Source: a virus. Taken from it: a stretch of 43,742 nucleotides of DNA. The position numbers were made by a program, and so were the translations under genes. Below the pieces are notes generated by a model. It did not search any database. It saw only the letters and a list, made by a program, of their open reading frames with translations, and was not told the DNA's origin. Below are positions 5,642-43,430 of this stretch, in pieces. Each line of letters begins with the position of its first letter. Position 1 is the stretch's first letter. Location of the stretch: the IMG/VR virus record IMGVR_UViG_3300036832_000544, positions 1-43,742 of that record; one strand, 5' to 3'.

Positions 5642-8119
5642 ATGCCGACAGAAGCACGGATAATTCAACGTGCCTTGACGATTGAATTGATCGCCAAACG
5701 TCGTCTTAATGCGACGGCAATATGGCTGAATCCCGAATCTGCAGCGGCGAACGCCGATGACGCCACCCGAGAATCTCACAAACTCAATACACCGGTCGAG
5801 GATTGGCAGAGCCCGAACGATGACCGCAATATGGCGGTTCGTCTCGTTGATGGGTTCGTAGAACTCCAAATCGCCTCGCCGGACGACATCTGGGCCCGGA
5901 ATTTCTTCGAAGCCTGCGCGAGCCTCAAGGTCGACGCCCGATTCGCCTATGGCGCGCGCGGCCGGCCGATCACCTCGATCATCCTGCATGCCGATCGTCC
6001 CGAGAAGTGGGGCGATCGCTGGCCGCGCGGACATCGAGACAAGGGCGGTCAATGGGTGGAGACAAAGATCGCTTATTCGCCTGCGGCGTCGAAGCCCGTC
6101 TATGTCCATAGCCGGCCGCTGCCGGGGTCGATCTTCGCCAACGACCTGATGGTCTGGCGCCCGCTCGGCAAGCCGGCGGCCGACGACGGCGAGCTCGGGC
6201 TCGAGGATCTCGAGGCCCGCCAGATGGCGACGACAAGCATGGAATCTATTTGTCGGGCGGTCGCCTTCGCCACGCTTGGCTATTGGATCGGGGTCTACCT
6301 CGACGGACTGGATTGGGATCAGAGCCTGACACGGACGATCGGCGGCTGGATCGCACGCCAGATCCGCGAGGGCGCCGACATCAACGCTCGCGGAAAATCG
6401 CTCGAGGGCGTATGCTGGGCCCCGGTCGATAGCCTGGATTCGGCTGACGACCTCCTACGTTACTGTCTGAGACTTGGCGCGGGGCGAGAGCTCCGCGTCG
6501 CTTTCGAGCACGCTGATAGCGCGCTCGACCGGAATCGGCCGGTCGCGGGTTGGCCGGCGATTGAGACGCTCTTCGGCCCACACGCCAGAGTCGGAATCCG
6601 TCGCGCCTTTCGCGCCGGCCTCGATATAGATGTGATCGAGCGCATGTCGGAGCAATATGTCCTCGACACCAGTGAGCATATTTACATCGATCGCGAGACG
6701 CTGCTGAAGGGCGTCTATCCATATTTCCACAAGCAAGACGATCTGGTCCGCCAGTGGGACAACGAGAGCCTTTTCGTCGGCGGCAAACCGCAAAACCCCT
6801 TCCGGCTCTACGCTCGCTCGTCGCTGCGCACAGACGTCCTACGACAGGAGTTTCTCCCCGGCTCCGAGCCTGGAGCCATCCTGCGCTTTTCGCCCGTCTA
6901 CGGGCTGGTGAGCGACGATGAGCGCAGGGCCGACGAATATGTGGTCCTCAATAATTTCGGCGGCTTTCACATCAAGCCCGTCTCAACGATAGACCAAGCC
7001 GTCATGCGCGAGGTCGGAACCATGCTCGATCGGATGCTCGCGCTTTTGACCCAGGACAATGCAGCGCAGATGAAATGGCTAAAGCAATTCATCGCCTGGA
7101 TCAGACAACATCCTGAAGTTAAGGCGCAGGTCTGCCCGATCATCGTCGGCGGTCAGGGCATCGGAAAATCGATGTTTGGCAATGAATTGATGAAAGCGTT
7201 ATTTGGCAATATGGCTGGAGGAGCCGACGCTGGTTCGCTCTCCGACAACAAGTTTATGATCACGCCGTTCGTGCGCAAACTGATCACCTTTATTGACGAG
7301 GTGCATTTAGAAAACGCTGCGGCAATCAATCAAATCAAAAAAATTGTCCGCGCTGACTATGTGTCTGGACAGAACAAATTCGAGAATCAGAAAGACCATT
7401 ACATTCCATCGCGTCTGTTGATCGCCTCCAACGATGTCAAGATCGGGCTGCGCAGCGAGGACGCCGCCGATCGCTGTTTCTTTTTCATCATCGCCTACAC
7501 CTACAAAAATAAGAAGATGACCGTGCCCGCCTTTCAGGCGTGGGCGCAAACTCTCAAACCCTTTTTCGACATTGTCGACGCCAATTTGAAGAACGTCGTT
7601 TTTCGCCAGCATTTGGCTCGTTATTTCATGGATATCGAGGTCACGCGGGCCGAACTGGAAGATCTGACATGCTCGTCGCATGACGACGAGGATGTGGTGC
7701 TCGCGACCATGTCCAAGGAGCGCGAAATAGCGCGGGCGATCGTGGGCGACGCGCGGGTGCAGCAAGGTCTGGATATCACCGCTTGGTTTAACACCCAGCA
7801 ACTGCGCGAGGCGATCAAGCGCATCTATGACGGGCGCAACAGAGTCGAGGCGTCACTGGTGCTGGCGGAATACGAGCAGGCCGGCGTGCTAGAAAAAGAG
7901 TTTGGTGATAACTACAAGTTCAAATACAAGTATGGAACACTGCTGGAGAAGCTGGGCGAGGCGCATGGTTTGGCGGTCCCGCCAAACTGGCGTTTGGAGC
8001 CGGACGATTTCGGCGCCAACGATGTTCTGTCGATGCAGGGGGGTAGAGAGTGGCGAGGCTATCGACAAAGCAAGGCGCCGCGACAAAGGCGCGATCTCGA
8101 CGCTATGCCGGACTTCTAA
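5642..8119 (+). CDS. Phage replication primase/helicase, SF3/DUF5906 type, 825 aa
   Basis: The C-terminal third is an SF3-type helicase: Walker A GGQGIGKS (about 503-510), Walker B LITFIDEVHL (about 548-557) and motif C LLIASNDV (about 592-599), in DUF5906/D5-like order. The N-terminal region (about 60-140) has features reminiscent of archaeo-eukaryotic primase folds, notably FAYGARGRP, but the expected acidic pair appears as VELQI, so primase activity is doubtful. It probably unwinds the origin and loads host replication enzymes. It lies directly after the origin-like region, and no phage polymerase was found. Confidence 0.8.
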   Translation: MPTEARIIQRALTIELIAKRRLNATAIWLNPESAAANADDATRESHKLNTPVEDWQSPNDDRNMAVRLVDGFVELQIASPDDIWARNFFEACASLKVDARFAYGARGRPITSIILHADRPEKWGDRWPRGHRDKGGQWVETKIAYSPAASKPVYVHSRPLPGSIFANDLMVWRPLGKPAADDGELGLEDLEARQMATTSMESICRAVAFATLGYWIGVYLDGLDWDQSLTRTIGGWIARQIREGADINARGKSLEGVCWAPVDSLDSADDLLRYCLRLGAGRELRVAFEHADSALDRNRPVAGWPAIETLFGPHARVGIRRAFRAGLDIDVIERMSEQYVLDTSEHIYIDRETLLKGVYPYFHKQDDLVRQWDNESLFVGGKPQNPFRLYARSSLRTDVLRQEFLPGSEPGAILRFSPVYGLVSDDERRADEYVVLNNFGGFHIKPVSTIDQAVMREVGTMLDRMLALLTQDNAAQMKWLKQFIAWIRQHPEVKAQVCPIIVGGQGIGKSMFGNELMKALFGNMAGGADAGSLSDNKFMITPFVRKLITFIDEVHLENAAAINQIKKIVRADYVSGQNKFENQKDHYIPSRLLIASNDVKIGLRSEDAADRCFFFIIAYTYKNKKMTVPAFQAWAQTLKPFFDIVDANLKNVVFRQHLARYFMDIEVTRAELEDLTCSSHDDEDVVLATMSKEREIARAIVGDARVQQGLDITAWFNTQQLREAIKRIYDGRNRVEASLVLAEYEQAGVLEKEFGDNYKFKYKYGTLLEKLGEAHGLAVPPNWRLEPDDFGANDVLSMQGGREWRGYRQSKAPRQRRDLDAMPDF

Positions 8120-8343
8120 CATGGCCGCTTGCGCTGTCACTCGCCGCACCGGCGCATAGTCACTGCTTTAGTGTATGGCTCTATCCCTATCCGCAGCGCT
8201 GTCACGCGATCGCTCACGTTCCGTTCCCCCCAGAACGAATCGACATCTCCCTACCTGGCCTCCTCGATATCGACTGGGGTCAAGCGGGCGACGACTATCT
8301 GCGGGGGATTGCTTTGCTTCGAAACTTGGTTAATGCTCCCTAA
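8050..8343 (+). CDS. Small exported HCxSxWLYPYPQRC-type protein, 97 aa
   Basis: Starts with GTG at 8050 after AGGGGGG (8038-8044), overlapping the helicase gene by 70 bases in another frame. A basic N-terminus and hydrophobic stretch (YAGLLTWPLALSLAAPAHSH) look like a signal peptide. A CFSVWLYPYPQRC motif and an acidic DIDWG segment follow. I recall similar short proteins in Bradyrhizobium and related prophages, always of unknown function. The two cysteines may form a periplasmic disulfide. Confidence 0.65.
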   Translation: MARLSTKQGAATKARSRRYAGLLTWPLALSLAAPAHSHCFSVWLYPYPQRCHAIAHVPFPPERIDISLPGLLDIDWGQAGDDYLRGIALLRNLVNAP

Positions 8344-8430
8344 CGCCGGGAGCCGGCCGGCCAGCCGTGTGGTCGAGGTTCCTTCGCTGGTTCTCCTCGA
8401 TCCGCTCCCGGAGCCTCTCAGGAGGAATAT

Positions 8431-8706
8431 ATGGCTACGCAACCGCATCCAGAGCCGCCGAAGCCCGCGCCGCCGCCGCCTAAGCCGCCGGAAGATCCTC
8501 AAGACAAAACCGCCGCGACCAAGGCCGAGCTGGAACTGCAGAAGAAGCAGGCCGGCGAGCCGGTTAAGACGATCGCCGACGAGCAGCGTGAGCGCTCCGA
8601 AGAGATGGAGAAAGAGGGCGTCGATAAGTGGATGTCGAAATTCGACCAGCGAGCGCCTGAAGAGCGGCGCCAGCAGATCAAGGGCGTCATCGCCAAGGCA
8701 AGCTGA
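8431..8706 (+). CDS. Proline-rich then charged helical protein, 91 aa
   Basis: Has a strong AGGAGG site before ATG 8431. Residues 1-25 are nearly all Pro, Lys and Ala; the rest is Lys/Glu-rich helix ending QQIKGVIAKAS. No enzyme motif. The stop overlaps the next ATG (TGATG). The 87-base gap upstream contains an imperfect two-step hairpin (GGGAGC 8348-8353 with GCTCCC 8404-8409; TCGAGG 8373-8378 with CCTCGA 8395-8400). Function unknown. Confidence 0.6.
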   Translation: MATQPHPEPPKPAPPPPKPPEDPQDKTAATKAELELQKKQAGEPVKTIADEQRERSEEMEKEGVDKWMSKFDQRAPEERRQQIKGVIAKAS

Positions 8707-14400: not shown

Positions 14401-14783
14401 TGACAGACGGCGGCGCTCGTTACGATGATCCGAGGTGGGTAGAGTTGTTTGGCCGCTATCCGAGAAAGGTGCTCGATCGCTGCGCCAAATTCCACGTTAA
14501 CAATCCTCAAGTTTGGCCGTTGTTCAAACGAGCAGCCACACAAATGAAAGCCACGGGACGAAAGAAATACGGCGCTCGCAGGATTATGGAAGCTATCCGT
14601 TGGGAGATCGACCTTAAACGCCCAGCCGCTCAACCATTTAAAATCAATGGTGACTTTGTGCCAATCTATGCTCGTTGGCTAATTTACAACCATCCAGAAT
14701 TCAAAGGGTTTCTCGAATTACGCGCAGTTCGCAGCAGGGGAATCAAGTCGGAAGAAGAACGGCGTCGCGAGGGGACTTTATGA
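14400..14783 (+). CDS. Conserved phage protein FHxxNPxVW family, 127 aa
   Basis: ATG at 14400 overlaps the nuclease stop by one base; GTG 14397 is an alternative. The blocks FHVNNPQVWPLFKRAA, GARRIMEAIRWEI, FKINGDFVPIYARWL and HPEFKGFLELRAV match a very common phage family with no known activity. Its codon use is AT-richer than its neighbours. It overlaps the SNF2 gene by ATGA. Confidence 0.75.
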   Translation: MTDGGARYDDPRWVELFGRYPRKVLDRCAKFHVNNPQVWPLFKRAATQMKATGRKKYGARRIMEAIRWEIDLKRPAAQPFKINGDFVPIYARWLIYNHPEFKGFLELRAVRSRGIKSEEERRREGTL

Positions 14784-16189
14784 GTACGCTCGATCCGGTT
14801 CAGATTGCTGCTCTTGATTTCGCCCGCGACAAACGCGGCGTCGGCTGGTTTTTGGAACAAGGACTCGGGAAGACGCTGTGCGCCCTGGCTGAGTTCAGCT
14901 GGTATCACCAGCTAGACGAGGCCGATCGGATGGTCGTCGTCTGCCCGAATACATTCAAATCCGGTTGGGTGGACGAAGTCGAGAAGCACGGGTTCAAATT
15001 TGACCTCCACGTTTTTCGGTCCCCGAAGAAAGAGGCGGCGGCGACCTTTCTCAACGCAAAATTTCATAGCCAGCCGCCGGTCCTGATCATCAATTACGAA
15101 GCTCTCCGGATGCCCAACGTGCTCAAGGCGATCGCGATCTGGGCCGGCCGCGGCATGACGTACTTCGCGATCGATGAGTCGATCCAGATCAAAAGCAACA
15201 AGAGCGCGCAAACCAAAGCCGTTCTCAAGCTGGCTCCGCTCTGTACTTTTGTCCGGATTCTAACCGGGCGGCCGCAGACGCAAGGTCCGCATGATCTGTG
15301 GGGCCAGCTGCGCGCGATCGGACTACTCGAACACATCAACTACTATGTTTTCCGCGGCGAATATTGCGTCATGGGCGGCTGGCAAAACAAGGAGGTTCTC
15401 AGAGCCAAAAACACGACCCAACTGGCCTCTTATATGGCTCCTGCGGTTTTCCAAGCGCAGAAAAAAGACTGGCTGCCCGAGCTCCCTCGCAAAGATTCGA
15501 CCATCCGTGACTACGCCATGTCGACCGAGCAGCTGCGTCAATATCTATCGATGGAACATCAGTTTTTACTCTACCTCGAGAGCAATGTCGTCACTGTGGA
15601 TGTGGCGATCGCGAAATACGAAAAGTTGGCTCAAATCCAGACCGGATTCATCTACGACGAGGCCGGATGCATCCACGAGCTCGTCAAGCCGAGCGAAAAC
15701 CCCAGGCTCCAGCTCCTCATGCAATTGCTCGAGGAGGAAGTCGCAGGAAAGGCTTGTGTTGTTTATCGACATCGGCCTATAGTGGATGTGTTAGCTACAG
15801 CCCTATCGGATTATCAGCCAGCGTGGATCAGGGGCGGGATGAAACCAGAGGACGTCGAAGCTCAAAAAAAGCGTTTCAACACGGACCCCAATTGCCGTGT
15901 GATCCTGCTGCAGGCCGAGGCGAGCAAGTATGGCCACACCCTATTGGGCGGACCGGACCCGGACGACCTCTGCCGGACGATGATCTTTTTCGAGAACAGC
16001 TACTCAGCCGATACGCGCGACCAGATCGAGGACCGGATTCATAGGCGTGGCCAAACAGGCGAAAGTGTGCTGTACATTGATTTGTCGGGGTCCGATCTCG
16101 ATCGGCGCATTGTGAAGGCTTTGCAACGAAAAGATGAGCTATATCGTTCCGTGTTTAAAAATCTACGCGCTGCGGTTCCCGCGGCGTGA
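14780..16189 (+). CDS. SNF2/SSL2-like DEAD-box-superfamily helicase, 469 aa
   Basis: ATG 14780 overlaps the upstream stop (ATGA). Motif I is EQGLGKT (Lys31), motif Ia CPNTFKSGW, motif II AIDESIQIKS (Asp132-Glu133), and the C-terminal motif VI is DRIHRRGQTGES. This is the phage SNF2-like SF2 set with DES instead of DEAH. The length suits the minimal two-RecA core. Probably remodels replication or recombination intermediates along with the VRR-NUC-like enzyme. The open frame upstream of 14780 is a shadow. Confidence 0.85.
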   Translation: MSTLDPVQIAALDFARDKRGVGWFLEQGLGKTLCALAEFSWYHQLDEADRMVVVCPNTFKSGWVDEVEKHGFKFDLHVFRSPKKEAAATFLNAKFHSQPPVLIINYEALRMPNVLKAIAIWAGRGMTYFAIDESIQIKSNKSAQTKAVLKLAPLCTFVRILTGRPQTQGPHDLWGQLRAIGLLEHINYYVFRGEYCVMGGWQNKEVLRAKNTTQLASYMAPAVFQAQKKDWLPELPRKDSTIRDYAMSTEQLRQYLSMEHQFLLYLESNVVTVDVAIAKYEKLAQIQTGFIYDEAGCIHELVKPSENPRLQLLMQLLEEEVAGKACVVYRHRPIVDVLATALSDYQPAWIRGGMKPEDVEAQKKRFNTDPNCRVILLQAEASKYGHTLLGGPDPDDLCRTMIFFENSYSADTRDQIEDRIHRRGQTGESVLYIDLSGSDLDRRIVKALQRKDELYRSVFKNLRAAVPAA

Positions 16190-16211
16190 GATGTAGAGGA
16201 GAAGGGTGACA

Positions 16212-16934
16212 ATGAAAAAGCTACTGCTAGGGACTATCGGAGCTGCGGCCCTGTTGGCCGCGGCGCCGGCGGACGCCAGACTGCAACTCAGCATCTCGAA
16301 CGGCACGACGACCGTCTCTTGTTTTGACGGTCAGTTGGGTTGCGATCAAAGCGGAGGGGCGAACAATCTGCTCGTCCTCAACACCACGATCGGGTCCGCC
16401 TTCGTCGAGGTCACGCTGGCGCAATCCACATTCGGCACGCCCAACGTGCTTCAGCTTTCAAGCTCGAGCATCGTCAACGCGGGCATCGCGCCAGTCAACA
16501 TCACGCTTCTGGCGAGCGATAACGGCTTTGCTGGTCCGGTTTCCTTCATCGAGGAAAGCGGTTCGTTGACGTTCAACAACGCCGTTGGATCGAGCGCGTC
16601 GTCCCTGCGGTTCTGGGCTGATCCGCTCAATGTTCAGGGGGCGAATCCCTTGAACACGCCCGGCACGCTATTGGATACAGTGACCGGCACGCCGACGACC
16701 AATCCCGACAGCTTTTCGGGTTCGTTGTTCTCGCCGTTCAACGCTTCAGGCCCGTTCTCAATGACGGAGGGCGCGAGTTTGAATTTGATTGGCGGCGGCT
16801 CGATCACCGGCTTTAATCAGAGTATGACTTCGGGCGTTCCGGAACCGAGCCAATGGGCGATGCTACTCGCTGGTTTTGCGTTCTTGAGCTTCGTCGGATT
16901 CCATAAGCAGCGTAAGGAGCGGTTGGCGATCTAA
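16212..16934 (+). CDS. Secreted PEP-CTERM sorting-domain protein A, 240 aa
   Basis: ATG 16212 has AAGGG at the right distance. The N-terminus MKKLLLGTIGAAALLAAAPA is a Sec signal peptide, with cleavage likely after ADA. The mature part is Ser/Thr/Asn/Gly-rich and beta-like, with a cysteine pair in VSCFDGQLGC. The C-terminus has VPEPSQWAMLLAGFAFLSF followed by HKQRKER: the PEP motif, hydrophobic helix and basic tail of exosortase substrates. No exosortase is encoded here, so sorting would need the host enzyme. Function may be surface alteration. Confidence 0.85.
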   Translation: MKKLLLGTIGAAALLAAAPADARLQLSISNGTTTVSCFDGQLGCDQSGGANNLLVLNTTIGSAFVEVTLAQSTFGTPNVLQLSSSSIVNAGIAPVNITLLASDNGFAGPVSFIEESGSLTFNNAVGSSASSLRFWADPLNVQGANPLNTPGTLLDTVTGTPTTNPDSFSGSLFSPFNASGPFSMTEGASLNLIGGGSITGFNQSMTSGVPEPSQWAMLLAGFAFLSFVGFHKQRKERLAI

Positions 16935-16941
16935 CAAAAAG

Positions 16942-16962
16942 GGGCCGCGGTGGTCGCGGCCC
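16942..16962 (+). terminator. GC hairpin between the two PEP-CTERM genes
   Basis: GGGCCGCG (16942-16949) pairs with CGCGGCCC (16955-16962) around GTGGT, followed by TGTTTC. It resembles a weak intrinsic terminator and would lower transcription of the second PEP-CTERM gene relative to the first. Confidence 0.6.
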
Positions 16963-16983
16963 TGTTTCAAGGAAGGGTGAAAA

Positions 16984-17757
16984 ATGAAAAGCTTACTGTT
17001 GAGTGCTACCATACTGGCGGCCGTTGGGGCAAGCCCCGCACTCGCCGCCTGTTCCGGCAACGTCACCATCGGCAACATCGTCTGGATCTCGGGCTGCTCG
17101 TCCGACAATCAGGCCAACGATGGCGACGACGTGAAAATGTTCGTCGATAAAACGCCGACAACGACGCAGGCGATTGAAGGTTCGCTTGGCAGCAATAACC
17201 AAGCGTTTGACAATATCCATTCGGCAGCTAACGCTGATTTCGAGACGGATGGCAGTGGGTTTGCAAACTTCAAAAGCGTCGATGCTGGCTCGCCATTGAA
17301 CACCCTGACGGCTTATCAGTTCACACCGGGGCCGAGTCCAACTTTCCCGGACGGCACGCCGTTTCCCGGCTTCGACGGCGAACTGTTCCGGGGACAGATC
17401 GACAATCTGGGAGCCTTCGACGGCATGCTCGACGTGTCGATCACGTTCTCCGATAATTCGACGGCGAGCCACACCTTCACCGGCCTCGCCACCAACGGCA
17501 AGGATTTTGGCGTTCTCGGCTTCGACGAACTCCTCGACCCCGGCCTTCTGGTCAAGTCGGTGTTGATCTCGGTCGATGCGCACGGCGGGGCGTGGAACGA
17601 GTTCAAGCAGATCGAGTTCTCGGTGCCCGGCGCCGTGGCGGTCATTCCAGAGACGTCGACCTGGGTTATGGCGCTGTTAGGCTTCGGCATGGTGGGGATC
17701 GGCTATGGAGCGCGCAGAAGGTCTCTTCATCAACGGGATAATCGCACTCACGCTTAG
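16984..17757 (+). CDS. Secreted PEP-CTERM sorting-domain protein B, 257 aa
   Basis: Begins with signal peptide MKSLLLSATILAAVGASPAL (cleavage after ALA), then CSGNVTIGNIVWISGC with a possible disulfide. The mature domain is acidic and beta-rich. The C-terminus IPETSTWVMALLGFGMVGIG plus GARRRS is an alphaproteobacterial PEP-CTERM signal (PExSTW). The ribosome-site context GGAAGGGTGAAAAATGAAAA closely resembles that of protein A. The bodies are not obviously homologous, so they may be partners rather than duplicates. Confidence 0.85.
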   Translation: MKSLLLSATILAAVGASPALAACSGNVTIGNIVWISGCSSDNQANDGDDVKMFVDKTPTTTQAIEGSLGSNNQAFDNIHSAANADFETDGSGFANFKSVDAGSPLNTLTAYQFTPGPSPTFPDGTPFPGFDGELFRGQIDNLGAFDGMLDVSITFSDNSTASHTFTGLATNGKDFGVLGFDELLDPGLLVKSVLISVDAHGGAWNEFKQIEFSVPGAVAVIPETSTWVMALLGFGMVGIGYGARRRSLHQRDNRTHA

Positions 17758-17863
17758 TCTTGTCATTTGGACGGGGACCGGCAGCTTCATCGGTTGGCTG
17801 GCGCTGGCGGTCCCAGGCGCTATTATGATCTTCGCAGGCTGGATCGCAGTCCTGCGCGAATAG
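17705..17863 (+). CDS. Small two-helix membrane protein, 52 aa, holin-like
   Basis: Starts at ATG 17705, inside the end of PEP-CTERM gene B in another frame, behind GGTGGGGA. The 52-residue product has two hydrophobic segments, LFINGIIALTLSLVIW and FIGWLALAVPGAIMIFAGW, joined by a TGTG turn, and charged ends. Size and topology fit a class II/III holin or a small membrane effector. It follows PEP-CTERM genes and precedes the Pro-rich protein. Confidence 0.6.
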   Translation: MERAEGLFINGIIALTLSLVIWTGTGSFIGWLALAVPGAIMIFAGWIAVLRE

Positions 17864-17872
17864 GAGGAGCAA

Positions 17873-18460
17873 ATGGCAGGTAAAAAAATTGTCATCGTCG
17901 GTGAAGTTTACGATCCTGATCTAAGCGTTGGCGGCGGCCCCATGCCTCCAGGTGAAGGCGGGCCCCCTCCCGGTATCTGGCCCTCACCGGGGCACCCCGC
18001 ACATCCTATTGCACCGGGTGGTCCGCCTCCTGGCATTTGGCCCTCACCGGGGCATCCTGCTCATCCAATCGCTCCGGGCGGGCCTCCCCCATACCCTGCG
18101 CACCCGATTGTCATCCCGCCAGAATTTATCAGTGACGTTCATCCGGAGCATCCCATCGTTATTCCTCCTCCTCCGGAGATCTGGCCTTCACCGGGAGTTC
18201 CAACTCACCCAATCGTGATCCCGCCCGACATCGGTATCTGGCCGCCGGATGCAAAGCCTGAACATCCCATCGTGATCCCGCCTCCGACGACAGTGTGGCC
18301 GCCGGATGCAAAACCTGTACATCCTATTGTAATTCCTCCCGATGGACCTCCAACGGTCTTGGATAAATGGGATGTGAAGGCGTACTGGACGGAACAGGGC
18401 GGCTGGGGAGTGGCGATTGTTCCGACTGAGAATCATCCCGGCGTGCCGACGCCGTCGTAA
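17873..18460 (+). CDS. Proline-rich repeat protein (HPIVIPP / PPGIWPSPGHPAHP), 195 aa
   Basis: GGAGGAG precedes ATG 17873. Two exact-length 60-bp units (17957-18016, 18017-18076) encode GGPPPGIWPSPGHPAHPIAP. Degenerate versions with HPIVIPP and WPPDAKPxHPIVIPP follow. The C-terminal 35 residues (DKWDVKAYWTEQGGWGVAIV) form a small beta domain. Similar Pro-rich proteins with a C-terminal beta domain occur in alphaproteobacterial phages with no known role. No signal peptide, so export is unlikely unless by a virion route. Confidence 0.7.
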   Translation: MAGKKIVIVGEVYDPDLSVGGGPMPPGEGGPPPGIWPSPGHPAHPIAPGGPPPGIWPSPGHPAHPIAPGGPPPYPAHPIVIPPEFISDVHPEHPIVIPPPPEIWPSPGVPTHPIVIPPDIGIWPPDAKPEHPIVIPPPTTVWPPDAKPVHPIVIPPDGPPTVLDKWDVKAYWTEQGGWGVAIVPTENHPGVPTPS

Positions 18461-43221: not shown

Positions 43222-43430
43222 CGTCCATGCGCAACCGGCAGTGGGCGCCGCGTGACGAACCTCGCTATGGGCCCAAGAACGAACACTGCGGCCACATCGG
43301 CGGATGTCCATTCCCCGAACTGGATTGTCCGCGACTCGGTTGCTGGTTGAGGGATGATCGGCCGACCGCGAGAATCCATGTCGGAATACTGAAATATCAC
43401 TTGACTAGTCCCAACGCTAGGACTAGATAG
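43218..43430 (+). CDS. Small cysteine-rich protein, 70 aa
   Basis: ATG 43218 overlaps the upstream stop (ATGA) and follows GGAGG. Residues NEHCGHIGGCPFPELDCPRL then GCWLRDD place four cysteines and a histidine for zinc binding. The stop codon lies in the -10 of promoter P4. Unknown function. Confidence 0.6.
   Translation: MTSMRNRQWAPRDEPRYGPKNEHCGHIGGCPFPELDCPRLGCWLRDDRPTARIHVGILKYHLTSPNARTR
43401..43429 (+). promoter_or_regulatory. Phage promoter P4 (TAGGACTANATA family)
   Basis: TTGACT (43401-43406), 17-base spacer, TAGATA (43424-43429), with the shared block TAGGACTAGATA at 43418-43429. It drives the junction gene and, through it, the early genes at 251 onward. Confidence 0.8.

Follow-up and report, generated by a model that had tools for sequence, protein, structure and literature searches.

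Mobile PEP-CTERM genes in viral contigs: candidate phage surface proteins for sorting by the host exosortase

Results

In the window, by which we mean the whole 43.7-kb virus record analysed here, genes for portal (phrog_1216), terminase, scaffold and tail occupy the minus strand, and genes of replication type the plus strand. Two adjacent open reading frames (ORFs), P1 and P2 (Table 1), come near the end of this plus-strand block. A first-pass annotation had read this pair as two secreted PEP-CTERM proteins, and we confirmed both ORFs at the coordinates it gave, with a signal peptide and a tag in each. Both N-termini are hydrophobic and lysine-bearing and end in A-x-A (signal peptides were called by eye and with a hydrophobicity script), and both C-termini pass from a motif through a hydrophobic helix to a basic cluster. 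The motif is PEPSQW in P1 and the variant PETSTW, with PET in place of PEP, in P2. We prefer the ATG start of P1 to the upstream GTG because it is better positioned behind AGGAGAAGG.

Table 1. Genes and sequence features around P1 and P2, in window coordinates
Feature	Position	Strand	Description
SNF2-type DNA helicase gene	14780..16189	+	Directly upstream of P1; slot marker
P1, alternative upstream start	16206	+	GTG
P1	16212..16934	+	240 aa; Sec signal peptide, ~185-aa beta-sandwich domain (predicted), PEP-CTERM
P1 signal peptide	16212..16277	+	Ends ...ADA before RLQLS
P1 mature domain	16278..16838	+	Predicted jelly-roll beta-sandwich
P1 PEP-CTERM	16839..16931	+	PEP motif, membrane helix, basic tail; PF07589 match 16836-16904
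GC-rich hairpin between P1 and P2	16942..16962	.	T-run on minus strand
P2	16984..17757	+	ATG start; 257 aa; Sec signal peptide, mature domain, PEP-CTERM variant
P2 PEP-CTERM model match	17644..17721	+	PF07589
52-aa ORF	17705..17863	+	Two hydrophobic stretches; overlaps P2 end

Terminator-like sites in the P1/P2 region are no more frequent than in shuffled sequence. P2 has two closer full-length relatives only, plus some distant ones; its homologue in contig L013 is likewise trailed by an ORF that resembles, by eye, the window's 52-aa ORF. A proline-rich repeat ORF (17873-18460, plus strand) contains HPAHPIAPGGPPPGIWPSPG, and Pro/Gly-rich ORFs lie between the helicase and the PEP-CTERM gene in L020, L026, L027, L034 and other records. 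At 42627-43430 (plus strand) the window matches the Pfam model for fatty acid desaturase weakly, at a score under the cut-off. No integrase was found among two sets of 10 window proteins compared with Pfam or in PHROG scans of the window, and neither P1 nor P2 matches a PHROG at E up to 0.1.

The carrier of P1 and P2 is a phage with a podovirus-type portal. Its cultured portal relatives are those of Ochrobactrum phage vB_OspP_OH (38% identical) and Sinorhizobium phage phiM5 (35%), and since the nearest cultured relatives infect Ochrobactrum and Sinorhizobium, there are hints in the sequence of an alphaproteobacterial host. The helicase did not yield a host, because a scan of cellular genome contigs returned no more than two loci, both of them remote (24% and 23% identical).

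Profile models, which the first-pass annotation had suggested as a check on the tags, bore them out in part. In a six-frame search PF07589 recovers P1 at 24.3 and P2 at 23.8 bits, over its cut-off of 20.7, and matches none of 14 control genomes searched in the same way; scored as whole proteins, the two fall just under that cut-off (20.1 and 19.4 bits). TIGR02595 supports P1 (17.6 bits, cut-off 16) and not P2, which is absent at E up to 1, and NF035944 (PEPxxWA-CTERM) places both under its curated cut-off of 35, P1 at 25.2 and P2 at 23.2 bits. The same annotation had claimed that the window encodes no exosortase; this held, and more widely, as PF09721 matches none of 41 virus records (the window and 40 others). 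Among the 14 controls that model matches Methanocaldococcus jannaschii only. With no exosortase found in the phages, dependence on the host's exosortase would follow.

P1 belongs to a family that keeps both signals. Viral contigs were searched with the mature domain alone (alignment A4), which returned 62 viral loci, with some near-copies among them. Each of the 62 starts with a signal-peptide-like sequence, and a PEP-CTERM tag is present in all 58 loci with a complete 3' end, the remaining four being cut there. The query lacked both signals, yet the relatives carry both, so the association goes beyond chance. In 59 P1-family sequences the alanines of the A-x-A are at least 97% conserved, and in the tail the P, the E and one G are invariant and the W is kept in 95%, while many other positions vary. 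A profile of the family also weakly matches the start of nanobody constructs in the PDB (best E 0.011), which we take to be a PelB-type signal.

Most tags of the P1 family (55 of 58) read PExxxW; the other three, in L227, L237 and L244, read PEP[AF][ST]LG on the same domain, and those of L227 and L237, missed by the regular expression, were read by eye. The PEP[AF][ST]LG-tagged gene of L227 occupies positions 7932-8642. The portal of this phage is also nearest to that of phiM5, so a very different host for it is not supported.

Searches elsewhere returned little. P1 and P2 have no match in 50,697 phage records, and in one genome each of 84,980 species, scanned with two peptide patterns, 72 pattern matches included no relative of the P1 domain. 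A plasmid search gave one match, covering query residues 193-242 only, to a Sphingomonas protein annotated PEPxxWA-CTERM. Queries with the bare tags gave no matches, perhaps through the low-complexity filter.

The P1 model, built with 22 sequences, has a mean pLDDT of 80.8 and is all beta from residue 27 to 210, with a helix at 214-241. The structures that match it best are Bdellovibrio Bd1399 (Z 8.9), a Bacteroides surface glycan-binding protein (8.8), a glucosyltransferase domain (8.2) and CBM61 (8.1); viral capsid domains, tail-spike domains and Eph receptors score only slightly lower. In a viral structure library the matches are tail fibres and many uncharacterised proteins, at low TM-scores. 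The fold thus resembles carbohydrate-binding modules and glycan-binding proteins (Z about 6.5-8.8) among many other beta-sandwiches, and because such sandwiches are common and the scores middling, it does not reveal the bound ligand; from the model, glycan or receptor binding is a plausible role. P2 gave no usable model (mean pLDDT 38.5).

No NCBIfam or Pfam family matches the domain of the window's P1 alone at E up to 0.1, and the domains of other members have single weak matches only. Full-length proteins of the family (22 members) do match named NCBIfam PEP-CTERM families, two of the 22 matching NF033554 at E up to 0.001. When the tag was removed (15 of those 22), these matches disappeared, NF033554 included, so they reflect the tag.

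A second family, A7 (start TLQIEVFDNG), has the same layout on a different domain, about 20% identical to that of P1. A signal peptide is present at all 65 of its loci and a PEP-CTERM tag at 59 of the 60 with a complete end; the exception, L320, has lost the PEP motif and retained helix and basic tail. Median amino-acid identity in A7 is 88% for the mature domain, 57% for the signal peptide and 55% for the tag. Domain dN/dS in this family has a median of 0.10 and a maximum of 0.30 (1260 pairs, 51 sequences). For the P1 mature domain it is 0.01-0.15 in the six closest pairs, and across 711 P1-family pairs whose dS lies between 0.05 and 1.2 it has a median of 0.37 and reaches 0.87 at most. The mature domains of P1 and A7, the two families tested, are under purifying selection.

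A motif scan of viral contigs gave at least 85 matches in at least 80 loci; at least 78 have a PEP-CTERM-like tail, at least 71 of these with a signal peptide. A further phage PEP-CTERM family (start ATQITVENIG...) has eight members among the matches listed (L094, L114, L127, L147-L150 and L161). Several PEP-CTERM genes occur together in the window, L004, L012, L014, L025, L047, L057 and L086, and tandem arrays of two or three are present in several records. One such array, L014:9458-12339 on a 73-kb viral contig, holds three PEP-CTERM-like genes including a P2 relative; the family model has no match in the L014 record at E up to 0.001.

The first-pass annotation had proposed surveying phages for PEP-CTERM genes in the position held by P1 and P2, and such genes do recur behind the helicase as well as elsewhere in viral contigs. 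Relatives of the window's helicase occur in 42 viral records, 27 of which have a PEP-CTERM match (24 of them over the cut-off). Where the helicase is at least 72% identical (28 records), a match is present in all 24 records whose contig extends far enough, in three of them at 19.4 bits, under the cut-off; as several of these records are near-copies of one another, the 24 should not be counted as independent. The other four of the 28 end 427-1299 bases behind the helicase without a match, and in three of these the start of a PEP-CTERM gene is visible (L032, and L322 and L324 on the contigs of L040 and L036). These four and 11 records with a helicase at most 70% identical make up the 15 of 42 without a match. 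Some of the 11 are short contigs (L052, L054, L056), and three further records, L057, L058 and L059, have a match despite a helicase at most 70% identical. Absence from 15 of 42 helicase records indicates that the PEP-CTERM gene is dispensable for this type of phage as a whole.

In vB_OspP_OH the convergent structural block comes directly after the helicase. There the helicase is the last plus-strand gene of the examined stretch, a minus-strand gene begins about 125 bases on, and, unlike in the window, no annotated gene lies between helicase and structural block. With only about 125 bases in that slot, the PEP-CTERM genes look like an insertion.

The families also occupy other slots. At 7 of 63 loci, counting the window, the P1-family gene follows a close helicase within 800 bases. 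In L205, L208, L218, L230, L234 and L250 it is flanked by terL and portal, on their strand; in L232 and L261 it comes just after the portal gene; and in L227 and L237, both with PEP[AF][ST]LG tags, it separates the genes for scaffold and major head protein. At 28 of the 63 loci none of the markers was seen. Across 49 P1-family records, the phrog_1216 portal is present in 24 and any helicase match in 15, strong in only four. A7 genes have a close helicase (71-76% identical) upstream within about 1 kb at 18 of 59 loci and are flanked by terL and portal in L280 and L287, with no marker at 30 of 59. Different PEP-CTERM families thus have the helicase slot in common. In the motif scan, 12 of the 50 loci examined (of at least 80) have a helicase match in the record, three of them strong.

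Among 39 A7 loci of 8 kb or more, 97 of 230 pairs whose domains are at least 80% identical at the DNA level share no flanking ORF; since all 39 loci join one group transitively, this figure speaks of mobility and not of fully separate lineages. The architecture of P1 and P2 is retained across phages, and genes of this kind move between slots and between phages. Presence in some and absence from other related phages, in varied slots, is moron-like behaviour, and P1 and P2 are best read from their sequence contexts as accessory (moron) genes.

Discussion

We think it probable that P1 and P2 are phage surface proteins that are exported by Sec, sorted by the host exosortase and alter the host surface to the phage's benefit. 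Judging from the signals that they carry, the host's Sec pathway would export both proteins, the C-terminal PEP-CTERM would hold them, and the host exosortase would recognise and process the tag. In this way the mature domain would reach the outer envelope or the extracellular polymer of the infected cell, either released there or fixed in place. It would most likely change the surface to the phage's benefit, whether by hiding receptors or polymer from further phage or by altering the matrix so that progeny escape trapping. We put masking of receptors or polymer first because the domain, and not the tags alone, is under selection. Some copies lie among late head genes and others behind the helicase, positions that point to no single expression timing.

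The C-terminus might instead be a generic membrane anchor of an inner-membrane protein facing the periplasm, where it might for instance prevent DNA entry, with exosortase uninvolved. The missed cut-offs of some curated PEP-CTERM models, and L320 with its helix and basic tail but no PEP motif, would suit such an anchor, but it would need no P, E, W or G, and these are kept in 95-100% of the 59 P1-family sequences; the PE motif is likewise kept in 59 of 60 complete A7 genes while many other tail positions vary. We regard this reading as unlikely. Less likely still is that the proteins are phage counterparts of floc or biofilm PEP-CTERM proteins, a matrix glue that binds infected cells together or retains polymer, which overlaps with the surface-altering role that we favour. 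The P1 model does resemble carbohydrate-binding modules, among other beta-sandwiches, and overexpression of a bacterial PEP-CTERM protein lowers soluble and raises bound polymer, according to PMC9850573; the fold matches are, however, middling and widespread (Z below 9), and the benefit to the phage is unclear. It is improbable that P1 and P2 act as decoys, saturating the host exosortase and thereby blocking host surface proteins or polymer. The presence, in some records, of several PEP-CTERM genes in one phage and the lack of an exosortase in 41 phage records are in keeping with decoys, yet a decoy requires the two signals only and would not need the mature domain, which is the best conserved part (88% against 57% and 55% in A7; dN/dS about 0.1).

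Two further readings are the least likely. PEP-CTERM proteins are ordinary in bacteria, and some other contigs of the motif scan could hold host genes through mis-assembly or miscalling, the outcome that the first-pass annotation had named as fatal to its proposal; as a general explanation this is very improbable, since in several contigs the P1-family gene has terL and portal, or scaffold and head protein, on its two sides or follows the helicase, and no relative of the P1 domain was found in one genome each of 84,980 species (two peptide patterns). For P1 itself, host contamination is ruled out by phage gene neighbourhoods in many contigs: beside helicase, terL, portal, scaffold and head genes, and with relatives in phages, these are phage genes. 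That P1 is a virion (decoration) protein, as the place of the L227 gene between scaffold and major head protein genes might suggest, we reject on its signal peptide and membrane tail, which every complete copy has, and at most loci the gene was not found among head genes; the chance of a virion role is accordingly minimal.

Phage T5 makes a surface protein for superinfection exclusion, the lipid-anchored lipoprotein Llp. P1 and P2 are predicted to be likewise phage-made, exported and envelope-anchored accessory proteins, but with a C-terminal tag for the host exosortase in place of the lipid anchor. Bacterial substrates of the PEP-CTERM/exosortase (EpsH) system have a signal peptide, PEP motif, membrane helix and basic tail, as set out by Haft et al. 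2006 (PMC1569441). In the model given there, the signal peptide directs export through the inner membrane, the tag remains behind as an anchor, and the exosortase, on recognising PEP, hands the protein on; such sorting is described for environmental bacteria with an outer membrane and exopolysaccharide genes. The words phage and viral are absent from that main text. P1 and P2 share with the substrates so described the same four signals and an otherwise unfamiliar mature domain. Unlike them, they are phage-encoded mobile genes with no exosortase beside them, P2 has PET, and the P1 domain is absent from our bacterial scan. With the floc-forming PepA (PMC9850573) they have in common an exported PEP-CTERM protein expected in the matrix; unlike PepA, the P1 family has no NF033554 match without the tag (15 of 22 members).

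The first-pass annotation knew of no characterised phage system of this kind. None appeared in the literature searched on PEP-CTERM or exosortase together with phage or virus either (subscription papers and bioRxiv lay mostly outside its scope, and sources were available in part), and the host exosortase as a general phage delivery strategy was not described there. A single passing mention came from PMC11003980, in which the genes that hot-spring viruses have acquired include those for 13 TIGR03118 proteins bearing a putative exosortase-interaction domain. Expression of a Microcystis PEP-CTERM gene is the topic of PMC12642866.

A wider reading is possible, and we put it forward tentatively: a shared pool of phage-specific PEP-CTERM families may move among phages, their domains keeping their sequence while signal peptide and tag are exchanged or tuned to the secretion and exosortase dialect of the host, so that the host exosortase would become a delivery system for surface effectors. 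The three PEP[AF][ST]LG tags on the P1 domain would fit a tag tuned to its host. Were it common for phages to bring substrates of their own, this would be a new route by which they change host surfaces. The families would then also offer natural substrates with a constant domain and a changing tag, useful for reading exosortase specificity, and the dialect of a tag could be a clue to the hosts of uncultured phages.

Wholesale tag swapping is unsupported, as tags of different domain families are seldom alike: across domain families, 21 of 4904 tag pairs reach 80% nucleotide identity and two reach 85%, with a mean of 65.8%. Such weak sharing does not demonstrate swapping. The best single case is the pair L308/L312, with nucleotide identities of 94% for the domain and 69% each for signal peptide and tag; the pair L296/L302 was left out for domains of unequal length. 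In this hand-picked L308/L312 pair, four-fold sites differ at 18 of 105 positions in the domain against 8 of 19 in the two flanks (Fisher p 0.028).
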